The position numbers and the translations under genes are program-made. A stretch of 54,006 nucleotides of DNA. Source: an uncultured Bacteroidia bacterium (GTDB lineage: Bacteria; Bacteroidota; Bacteroidia; Bacteroidales; UBA932). The notes under the pieces are model-generated. The model was given only the letters and a program-made list of their open reading frames with translations. It searched no databases and had not been told where the DNA came from. Of this stretch, positions 42,375-43,746 are shown in pieces. Each line of letters begins with the position of its first letter. Positions within the stretch are counted from its first letter, which is position 1. The stretch covers positions 1-54,006 of the forward strand of contig CACYWN010000019.1 of the NCBI GenBank assembly GCA_902778105.1, in the 5' to 3' direction.

Positions 42375-42457
42375 TCATCCTCGAAACTGGCCTCCCTTGA
42401 GGATGAACCGGTGCATCCTCGCCGATCATCCTCAGGAGGAGGCTATTTTGAGGATGG
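42375..42457. repeat. REP doublet at the 3' end of the RAYT gene
   Basis: Two palindromes of 32 bp: 42375-42406 and 42426-42457. Each has arms TCATCCTC and GAGGATGA (the second ends in G) around 16 bases containing GGC. The gap is exactly 19 bases. The second palindrome contains the stop codon of the transposase gene (42443-42445). Confidence 0.85.
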
Positions 42458-43456
42458 GGGTTTGGCCGAAAGGGGGAATAGGGCGTTCACAGTAGCGAGG
42501 GGGAGGCCGGTGAAGCGGGCGAGTTGGCCGTTGGAGGCGTGGTAGTCGTATTTGAGTCGTTTGGCCAGGCCGTGCTTCTGTCCTTCGGTGAGTTTCGAGG
42601 GGCCGTTCTGGCCGAACTGCTGTTTGCAGATCCTAAGTGAAACGGTGAGAATCTCGTCGTCCGTAAGGGACAGGCTTTCTCCCAGTCGGAGGGCCGTTTC
42701 CACATGGGCCTCCACGTTCTTGAATACCCAGAACTGGAATTGCCGGCAATCCGGAAACAGCGACTCTACCAGCCTGTAATTCACGAAACTGCCCGGGAAG
42801 ACCATGCCGTCGGCCAGGAACGGCGGAGTCGTCGGCACCGCGTCCCGGGATTGGCCCGGCACGGTCACTACGGTCAGCCCTTTCGGCAGGGGCAGGTCCC
42901 TGGAACAGGTCAATGCCCGTTTTTCCCGCAAGGTCAAAGTCTCTGCGGGCCGCTGCGGAATCAGCGTCAGCAACGGATTGAAATACAGGAAGCCGGAACA
43001 CCAGGGGTAGGCGAATGCATGGACATCCGTCCTGACGACAAAGGGGTTCCGGATGACGTAGGCAACTTCGTCCCGGAGTTGTTTGAGGGTCGTGATCGGC
43101 GTCGGGTCCGGGAGTTCAACAGTCTTCAGTACGCCCGGTCGTCCATGACGCGAGAAATACAGGGATAGTTTTCCGGAAAATCGACCGTAGAACTCCCGGC
43201 ATGCCAGTTCCTCTCCGCGCAGAATAAAATGGAAGTGATTGCTCATCAAGGCATAGGCCAATACTTCCACGCCACTCAAAGCAGCAGCGATGGCCATATA
43301 GACCAGGGCAATCGCCCGTTCCACATCATTTTTGAAAATCACGCCTGTCTCCAAAGGTTTCGTATGAAGATGGAAAAAGGGGCCGCTGTCCCGGAACAAC
43401 CGTTCCGATTCCCACTCGTTGTCCCGACCTTGTGGTCTGCCTGCAAACTGTTTCAT
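42443..43456 (-). CDS. REP-associated tyrosine transposase (RAYT, Y1/HUH)
   Basis: 337 residues. The N-terminal Y1 transposase domain (about 15-150) has the HUH metal site His74-Phe-His76 in LMSNHFHFIL and the likely nucleophile Tyr133 in EVAYVIRNP, where family members read YIHxNP. The C-terminal part carries a probable DNA-binding helical domain (LTDDEILTVSLRICKQQFG... and SNGQLARFTGLPLATVNALF). RAYTs are single-copy, domesticated relatives of IS200/IS605 transposases that bind and cleave REP palindromes. Here palindromes sit on both sides of the gene. Catalytic residues look intact. Confidence 0.88.
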   Translation of the reverse strand: MKQFAGRPQGRDNEWESERLFRDSGPFFHLHTKPLETGVIFKNDVERAIALVYMAIAAALSGVEVLAYALMSNHFHFILRGEELACREFYGRFSGKLSLYFSRHGRPGVLKTVELPDPTPITTLKQLRDEVAYVIRNPFVVRTDVHAFAYPWCSGFLYFNPLLTLIPQRPAETLTLREKRALTCSRDLPLPKGLTVVTVPGQSRDAVPTTPPFLADGMVFPGSFVNYRLVESLFPDCRQFQFWVFKNVEAHVETALRLGESLSLTDDEILTVSLRICKQQFGQNGPSKLTEGQKHGLAKRLKYDYHASNGQLARFTGLPLATVNALFPLSAKPPSSK

Positions 43457-43460
43457 GGGA

Positions 43461-43491
43461 CAAACATACGCGAATGCCCCTGCCCAGGCAA
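43461..43491 (-). promoter_or_regulatory. Possible promoter of the RAYT gene
   Basis: Minus-strand TTG (43489-43491), 20 bases, TATGTTTG (43461-43468). The box ends four bases before the ATG, so the mRNA would be leaderless, or the real promoter is elsewhere. Confidence 0.45.
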
Positions 43492-43612
43492 TACCCGTCC
43501 TGCAACTTTTTATGTTTCCAGTCCATTTTATCGGTTTTCGGTGTTTCCCAAAACAGAAAAAACCTGAAACAACCGAAGGAATCGAAATGATTTTTATCCT
43601 CTTGCGGCCCTT

Positions 43613-43746
43613 TTGTCCGCAAAAAGGCCGGTAGATGAGGACGAGATACCGGTACTGTCAATCTCATCCTCAAGCGGGGCGGCTTATGAGGATGAAAGTG
43701 GGGATAAGGGCAAGTCGTCCTCAAATAGGCCCCATAATGAGGACGA
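43613..43746. repeat. REP triplet upstream of the RAYT gene
   Basis: Three 32-bp palindromes at 43613-43644, 43664-43695 and 43715-43746, separated by exactly 19 bases each (period 51). The middle has arms TCATCCTC/GAGGATGA; the last has TCGTCCTC/GAGGACGA, a compensatory pair change that keeps the stem; the first has a decayed left arm (TTGTCCGC) with GAGGACGA. All have 16-base centres with a GGC or GGCC core. The rest of 43457-43612 and 43747-43822 holds no gene that I can support. Confidence 0.85.

Follow-up and report, generated by a model that had tools for sequence, protein, structure and literature searches.

Helix-phased palindrome arrays of about 51 bp accompany a divergent RAYT-type transposase in Bacteroidales and may be read as duplex DNA

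RAYT transposases with cognate repeats, the repetitive extragenic palindromic (REP) sequences, are known (PMC3116915, PMC2817692). As described for Escherichia coli and Pseudomonas (PMC3116915, PMC8266576), the gene of the Y1/HUH transposase (RAYT, or TnpAREP) is flanked by palindromes, which are also dispersed as doublets (REPINs). One genome may contain several transposases with repeats of their own, and the doublets have a preferred spacing, given as 71 and 110 bp for Pseudomonas (PMC3116915). RAYTs are thought of as enzymes that read single-stranded hairpins, and the role of REP arrays is an old open question. The stretch of DNA analysed here, the window, is one entire contig of 54,006 bp (CACYWN010000019.1) from an uncultured Bacteroidia bacterium of the Bacteroidales lineage UBA932 (GCA_902778105.1), whose genome is represented by 2.66 Mb in 48 contigs and is 84% complete. 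It carries a RAYT-type transposase gene with palindrome arrays on both sides. With a probability of about 0.53, the sequence comparisons point to a RAYT/REPIN-like system in which the repeats would be read as duplex, probably by a C-terminal helix-turn-helix (HTH) domain of the transposase, on helix-phased bent DNA.

Other RAYT-like proteins are also close to this system. The TIRYT proteins of TIRtrons (Di Nocera 2013, PMC3733652) and TnpAY1 subclass 2.1 (PMC6006769) are described with partly self-complementary inverted repeats that lack the GTAG sequence and whose dimers and clusters can occur elsewhere in the genome. Subclass 2.1 proteins bear a C-terminal HTH; the section on this subclass reports that no REP-like sequences were found nearby and leaves open whether the HTH reads the flanking repeats (PMC6006769). 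Subclass 2.6 of Bacteroidetes is likewise associated with atypical structures without GTAG, copies of which are present elsewhere in the genome (PMC6006769). A REP survey of 2025 reports, in the sections consulted, neither clustering of REPs along a genome nor their periodicity, and RAYTs are not mentioned in these sections (PMC12306157). No report of helix-phased REP arrays was found in the literature searched, the scope of which excluded most subscription papers and the RAYT classification of 2017. What seems to be new in the locus described here is the common geometry and the helical phasing, a RAYT with cognate repeats being known in kind.

The transposase gene occupies positions 42443..43456 of the minus strand, with two palindromes at its 3' end and three upstream. 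A search with the pattern TCRTCCTC-N16-GAGGAYGA, in which mismatches were counted per site, recovered all five palindromes listed in a preliminary description of this DNA, none of them being assigned to a strand. The 3' array consists of palindrome 1 (42375..42406, an exact match) and palindrome 2 (42426..42457, one mismatch), joined by a 19-bp linker (42407..42425). The 5' array consists of palindrome 3 (43613..43644, two mismatches), palindrome 4 (43664..43695) and palindrome 5 (43715..43746), the last two being exact matches, with 19-bp linkers at 43645..43663 and 43696..43714. The period of exactly 51 bp was confirmed for every neighbour distance within both clusters, as was the position of the stop codon (42443-42445) inside palindrome 2. 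The window contains seven matches with up to three mismatches, while 1.22 were expected and seven were reached in none of 100 shuffles. A GT[AG]G tag, which is typical of the palindromes of E. coli and Pseudomonas, is absent here: it was found within 8 nt of the palindrome foot at 3 of 140 ends, under the rough chance level of 0.05 per end.

The motif is also dispersed over the genome. The whole genome contains 12 matches with up to one mismatch and none to the reversed pattern; together with the palindrome at 43613 this makes 13 palindromes in six clusters, two of which are located at the gene and four are dispersed doublets on other contigs. All 13 have a neighbour at exactly 51 bp. The genome-wide search proposed in the preliminary description thus showed that the motif is not confined to the transposase locus, and the suggestion of REPIN-like doublets at a RAYT-type Y1 transposase was borne out and extended to dispersed ones. 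A doublet of 83 bp (palindrome, 19-bp linker, palindrome) behaves as a unit. The exact motif alone is weak evidence for a single genome, being present in 9 of 121 genomes of the genus survey while the reversed pattern is present in 7 of 121; a partner at 51 bp was present in all nine and separates true sites from the reversed-pattern matches. Dispersed doublets at 51 bp were also found in three further genomes (G121, G122 and G123). The palindromes are numbered in tens here, whereas hundreds are described for E. coli and Pseudomonas.

The period of about 51 bp recurs at related transposases. In a lag test, repeated 7-mers in the flanks of the gene (at most 1 kb per side) were counted by distance, and the counts were compared with 100 Markov shuffles. 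The 61 loci tested comprised the window, its best paralogue, 24 further loci of the genus survey and 35 of the 38 loci from named genomes, three short matches in Flavobacterium/Chryseobacterium being excluded. Judged by title or completeness figure, most of the genomes compared are draft metagenome-assembled genomes (MAGs), the exceptions being E. coli and a few named isolates; organism names were taken from record titles. All 100 shuffles were beaten at 49 of the 61 loci, and in 47 of these the top distance was 50-53 bp or its double; for the genus loci the corresponding values were 24 of 26 and 24 of 24. When near-identical loci were merged, 44 of 55 distinct loci were significant, 42 of them at 50-53 bp (51 bp in 28, 52 bp in seven, 50 bp in six and 53 bp in one), the other two having top distances of 34 and 69. 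At 60 control loci of two housekeeping genes lag 51 (140 pairs) was level with other lags (147 at 24, 145 at 114), and its density was 0.5 per kb, compared to 8.3 per kb at 26 transposase loci. The window's own 1-kb flanks gave a weak result in this test (six pairs at lag 51, reached by 3 of 100 shuffles), which marks the window locus as a worn member of its class. Phasing of 51 bases and a palindrome triplet, which had been regarded as unusual, are both common among the loci of the relatives. Spacings of 50-53 bp in many repeat families distinguish these systems from the 71 and 110 bp of Pseudomonas.

The distribution of A/T in the doublets follows the helical repeat. For 35 non-redundant doublets (from 73) of 12 genomes, a cosine with a period searched from 5 to 30 bp was fitted to A/T at the 47 non-arm positions. 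The best period was 10.2 bp, equal to 51/5, with R2 of 0.90, while 300 permutations gave values up to 0.35. A/T is at its minimum at the palindrome centre and reaches 100% at the linker centre, half a period apart. The signal is present in both dispersed doublets (R2 0.88, n = 15) and array doublets (0.86, n = 20); in smaller sets R2 was 0.73 at 10.2 bp (best period 10.3) for the four dispersed doublets of the own genome and 0.46 for the three of the window, and with the arms included (83 positions) it was 0.33 at 10.3 bp. The A/T or G/C class is preserved by a larger share of the substitutions in the centre and linker than of those in the flanks (24 of 57 versus 94 of 341, p 0.029).

The transposase loci yielded 42 arrays, 29 of them distinct by unit consensus, of which at least three (L127, L064 and L053) share the window's arms. 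Since these arrays were selected for periods of 50-53 bp, their fifth harmonic corresponds to 10.0-10.6 bp by construction, while its dominance does not follow from the selection. The fifth harmonic accounted on average for 19.7% of A/T variance in the 29 arrays, compared to 4.0% after permutation (maximum 6.3% in 2000 replicates), and was the largest of harmonics 1-13 in 19 of 29. Coding loci and distal flanks treated in the same way gave 4.3% and 4.4%, at most 6.9%. Some arrays behave otherwise: the A/T signal of L127, which belongs to a set of six long arrays, is strongest at 17.0 bp and not at 10.2, two paralogues of the own genome with 73-75 bp units have the seventh harmonic among the top three at a small value (0.05-0.14), and a 38-bp array peaks at the second harmonic.

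One explanation of the phasing is that the arrays are a host platform, providing wrapping sites for gyrase, as do the E. coli BIME-2 elements, or for a nucleoid protein, the transposase only spreading the unit. Such proteins prefer DNA with phased A/T. Strong gyrase sites are a known property of BIME-2 elements, and the flanks of the E. coli gyrase motif have a 10.75-bp GC periodicity that was proposed to be read by the wrapping domains (PMC6379681). BIME-2 elements are also tandem palindrome arrays tied to a RAYT system, but the two examined, both named in the same paper, have a unit of 90-91 bp and little A/T signal in the helical range: their power at 10.0-10.9 bp was 1.6 and 3.0, with best periods of 9.1-9.2 bp, while six Bacteroidales arrays gave 20-34, a rough comparison as array lengths differ. 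Moreover, the half-sites vary with the transposase and lie at its own gene, which a common host protein would not need. The host platform is accordingly considered improbable, and ranks third after the binding of phased duplex half-sites by the HTH and the reading of hairpins.

In the leading interpretation the element is REPtron-like. The transposase gene has a fixed chromosomal place, and its cognate palindromes form arrays next to it as well as 83-bp doublets, which have been copied to other sites and in some cases lie in frame within coding genes. Each palindrome would consist of a pair of inverted half-sites, TCRTCCTCA, recognised as duplex by the transposase, and the simplest reader would be the C-terminal HTH of a dimer. 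Adjacent palindromes are five helical turns apart on DNA with helix-phased A/T, so that the bound units would face the same side of DNA bent one way in the cell. Such a nucleoprotein array may serve as a platform for the HUH domain, whose substrate would be a strand that becomes single during replication or by the bending. In a further, more tentative version, held at clearly less than even odds, the arrays are a DNA-wrapping device, in which transposase dimers, bound to the half-sites by their C-terminal HTH, coil the phased DNA into a regular filament that resembles nucleosomes and has five turns in each unit. The helix and not the sequence would then set the unit length, so each transposase would be free to change its half-site while the geometry is kept, and the HUH domain would require the wrapped duplex for strand cleavage. 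With about 40 distinct RAYT loci that have mostly different repeats and nearly one geometry, duplex geometry becomes a testable determinant of the RAYT system.

The protein of 337 aa fits the RAYT type by its motifs and fold. The His-Phe-His of the HUH motif is encoded by codons 74-76 (43229..43237, minus strand) and the presumed catalytic tyrosine by codon 133 (43058..43060, minus strand) in the context EVAYVIRNP, its role being suggested by the Y..NP motif of RAYTs. His74, His76 and Tyr133 are invariant in 17 aligned proteins, so that both the HUH and the Tyr-NP (YVIRNP) signatures of RAYTs are present. The best Foldseek match of the AlphaFold model (mean pLDDT 86.5), and the sole one with E <= 0.001, is the E. 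coli RAYT solved with a REP hairpin (4er8; E 9.5e-4, TM 0.58 on target), followed by IS200/IS605 transposases at E 0.02 and above. The protein scores far below the curated models, with 13.3 bits against a cut-off of 80 for NF047646 (REP_Tyr_transpos) and 13.1 against 23 for PF01797 (Y1_Tnp), and nothing in Pfam, NCBIfam or PHROGs exceeded the cut-off. As homology rests on motif and fold, the protein, which had been described as a RAYT or Y1 transposase, is assigned to a divergent branch of RAYT type. Its C-terminus (codons 291-326, 42479..42586, minus strand) forms a three-helix HTH-like unit (ASNGQLARFTGLPLATVNALFP) in both of two structure models, with Q311 and R314 invariant; such a long C-terminal extension is another difference from the RAYTs of E. 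coli and Pseudomonas.

The consensus of the 17 proteins lacks a conserved Trp between the HUH motif and the Tyr motif, unlike TIRYT and subclass 2.1. The TnpAY1 subclasses that have typical REPs conserve the E. coli residues W94, Q95 and R104, of which W94 is described as having an unclear role (PMC6006769); accordingly, the palindromes here lack the GT[AG]G tag. GGGGWSAS, present in the majority of the inverted repeats of TIRYT and subclass 2.1, was absent from all 70 linker readings (35 linkers, both strands), and helix-phased arrays of 50-53 bp are not part of the accounts of TIRYT and subclass 2.1 cited above. Subclass 2.6 is described with a median length of 179 aa and a YIH[QN]NP motif (PMC6006769), in contrast to about 300-340 aa and YVIRNP here.

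The closeness of the protein model to a RAYT solved with a REP hairpin favours a classical single-strand REPIN system, in which the transposase would read hairpins of each palindrome or of the doublet, cleave nearby and move the doublet, the spacing being inherited through copying and tandem duplication. Overall this is judged rather unlikely. The doublets do fold as hairpins, Pseudomonas REPINs also have preferred spacings (PMC3116915), and the linkers are of common descent, so the spacing of one family can be inherited. Inheritance of a single unit fails, however, for periods of 50-53 bp in differing sequences, unless all share an ancestor beyond recognition, and the 10.2-bp A/T phasing is left unexplained. 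Furthermore, the half-sites do not covary, contrary to what had been proposed from the five palindromes of the window. Among 56 non-redundant palindromes of the relatives and the own genome, arm position 3 was AA in 15, GG in 17, AG in 11 and GA in 13, i.e. matched in 32 against 30.5 expected within genomes (p 0.44), with an A/G mismatch in 24. A first test of this position on 36 palindromes had given p 0.018, a signal that was gone in the larger set with within-genome shuffles. Across genomes some arm pairings exceed shuffles (p 0.003 in two of the four tests on arms), an effect that can arise from differences between lineages. A paired stem formed by the linker or the centre was also rejected, as both pair slightly less than expected in the 35 doublets. 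The lack of half-site covariation and of excess pairing in centre and linker argues against a long hairpin as the recognised form. The doublet was predicted to fold as one long hairpin in 2 of 6 strands (one of three doublets), and compensatory changes of the kind expected in a REPIN were not observed; the system is therefore named REPIN-like and not REPIN. On balance, the absence of covariation and the helical phasing favour duplex recognition.

The repeats differ between transposases. A paralogue of 51% identity in the same genome has repeats AATTGTGT-N15-ACACAATT, with 31 sites at up to two mismatches and steps mostly of 50 bp; its AATTGTGT sites form arrays at its own gene, one dispersed triplet and one dispersed quadruplet, besides a few single sites. 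Other half-sites were found at further transposases (TCGTCGAGG, TCCACAAAA, GGAACAAAC, GGAGATGTCC and GATGGTGGTCC), and the window's arms are present in relatives with 93, 87, 71 and 67% identity of the transposase (L127, L128, L129 and L131). The loci offer many natural transposase-site pairs for mapping DNA specificity. Mapping of specificity by C-terminal identity gave no clear signal. Survival of the transposase without any such palindromes, an outcome that the preliminary description took to speak against its reading, was found in part: the genome of L130, with a transposase of 66% identity, has no match at up to one mismatch, while next to the gene there are three inverted half-sites of another sequence, 51 bp apart, the lag test not being significant.

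Several results weigh against duplex reading by the HTH on a common geometry. Arm sequence does not simply follow protein similarity, as the window's arms are absent at 66% and 61% identity and in the 51% paralogue, and these arms or near variants occur at five transposases of 34-43% identity (L051, L053, L058, L062 and L064). Of the nine genomes with exact sites, four (G003, G005, G064 and G082) yielded no RAYT at E <= 1e-45; the single RAYT found in a fifth (G017) has other repeats. No significant array was found at 11 of the 55 distinct loci. Among 13 distant paralogues of the own genome, outside the 61 loci, the top lag was 51 or 52 in only three, the others having 38, 73, 76 and more, and 4 of 11 profile matches in this genome (L214, L216, L218 and L219) have no clear array. 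With strict arms of 8 of 8, no dyad recurring at the period was found in 21 of 37 array loci. The HTH-like domain had no PDB match at E <= 0.001 and no Pfam HTH match. Finally, single-stranded doublets fold better than shuffles in six of six strands (z -4.8 to -6.5), as palindromes would; such scores do not separate duplex from hairpin, and a hairpin with 9-bp arms may be what is recognised.

The absence of strict dyads at 21 of 37 loci indicates that some arrays are weakly palindromic, and strict palindromy in all families was not supported, yet three of these loci (L051, L128 and L129) show palindromes under a looser search. Whole-unit self-complementarity in ten arrays was 0.43-0.71, with no control alongside.

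In the samples covered, the divergent RAYT group occurs almost only in one Bacteroidales genus. At E <= 1e-20, a profile built from the 17 proteins matched 2 of 198 sampled Bacteroidales genomes, both from the genus of the window (one of 150 genera), and 11 proteins in the window genome; in the genus survey 21 of 121 genomes matched the window protein at E <= 1e-45. The 38 loci found in named genomes have titles mostly of Bacteroidales or Bacteroidia, many from ruminant gut samples. Two matches fit this picture poorly: a transposase of 50% identity, with no significant array, in a record titled Fibrobacter sp. (L136), explained either by transfer or by wrong labelling of the MAG, and a match of 29% identity in a record of Rikenellaceae (L147). 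In the closest relatives, Bacteroidales bacterium UBA3289 (L127, 93%) and RUG12703 (L128, 87%), the gene occupies the same chromosomal place as in the window. Movement of the whole gene in the manner of IS200/IS605 finds no support there or in the own genome, where other transposase copies are at most 51% identical. The window, L128 and L127 have 2, 3 and 13 palindromes in the 3' array and 3, 2 and 1 in the 5' array, all at steps of 51 bp, which indicates that the arrays grow and shrink by whole units.

The dispersed doublets appear to be copies of such a unit. Pairwise identity in 76 doublet pairs was 0.85 for the arms, 0.52 for the centre and 0.46 for the linker, compared to 0.29 and 0.28 for shuffled centres and linkers, and the linkers of dispersed doublets have an oriented consensus near GATGGTCATTTTGCCCGTT. 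Linker and centre common to the doublets point to descent from one unit. One doublet of the own genome was found in frame within the gene of an AroD-AroA fusion protein, in the linker that joins the two domains. It was the only one in the aroD-aroA linker among 30 loci compared (the own locus and, of the matches obtained in 52 of 61 genomes, the best 29); in three of the 30, doublets lie next door. The closest relative in this set (G003, L099) has no doublet in the linker, which is 84 bp shorter there on DNA, and L098 also lacks it. UBA3289 and RUG12703 carry the aroD-aroA doublet, so it was probably gained before they split. The 51-bp neighbours, the 84-bp difference and the shared linker are features expected of a mobile REPIN doublet, the movement of which might be performed by the HUH activity. 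As regards the earlier proposal of a mobilisation substrate or a transposase-binding platform, the relatives support a copied unit and are compatible with a platform.

The three loci with doublets next door, together with G086, make up four relatives whose AroB carries in-frame units at a similar position, two in G005 and G038 and three in G037 and G086. The neighbouring aromatic-pathway genes aroB and aroD-aroA have each taken up such units, in different genomes (G000, G005, G037, G038, G086, G121 and G122). An mtaB-like gene of the own genome contains an in-frame doublet, present at the corresponding place in G123 and in none of 29 other mtaB loci scanned. MtaB was rejected as a clean empty site because the linker is hypervariable in relatives and the boundary is unreadable. 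Housekeeping genes have thus incorporated such repeats in frame. The palindromic elements of Rickettsia and REPs within open reading frames (PMC3733652) are similar in being short palindromic repeats in frame in genes, whereas here one repeat family with a cognate transposase is involved in aroB, aroD-aroA and the mtaB-like gene.

The arms of the doublets are constrained. In five orthologous doublet pairs the arms differ at 6 of 180 positions and the centre and linker at 57 of 235 (p 6e-10); the flanks of four of these pairs differ at 109 of 938 (p 4e-4 versus arms). Two dependent aroD-aroA pairs were excluded (arms 3/36 each, centre and linker 4/47 and 8/47). A first comparison of seven pairs, which gave no significant arm conservation relative to the flanks (p 0.14, or 0.36 without the two dependent pairs), contained one misaligned pair, with arms differing at 16/36 and, ungapped, at 1/36. 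Constrained arms in dispersed copies, together with the position of the arrays upstream of the gene and across its end, might also be explained by an operator array, through which the palindromes autorepress the transposase and regulate neighbours, mobility being incidental. The copies within coding genes and the variable number of palindromes (2, 3 and 13) in the 3' array of the same locus make this explanation very improbable.

Several further observations concern the insertion sites and the distant paralogues. The linker of the MtaB-like proteins (L067-L096) is hypervariable before STGERTRSF, with unrelated insertions in several relatives (L072, L073 and L086 being read in the wrong frame), and may be a place where the landing of other repeats is tolerated. 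Another repeat-like insert (CHSERS...) is present in the AroD-AroA linker of G042 (L103). Around one dispersed doublet, 3.1 kb of G000:C27 (L198) and G122:C32 (L188) are 99.8% identical, while the RAYT regions are about 83% identical, which is due either to recent transfer or to cross-binning of MAGs. Doublets in G122:C7, C25 and C31 (L184, L186 and L187) and in G000:C45 (L199) lie within a larger repeat of hundreds of bases at contig ends; the related G122 copies were rejected for a boundary test, their contexts being repeated and not independent. Two distant paralogues, L016 (G000:C30) and L020 (G000:C21), have a common half-site GAAAAGCG and top lags of 38 and 73 bp, and the gene region of L016 contains one internal TGA. 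Near another distant Y1 paralogue (L029, 2858-3147), tandem ACCTGCACC/GGTGCAGGT repeats spaced by 22 bp are present in both orientations.

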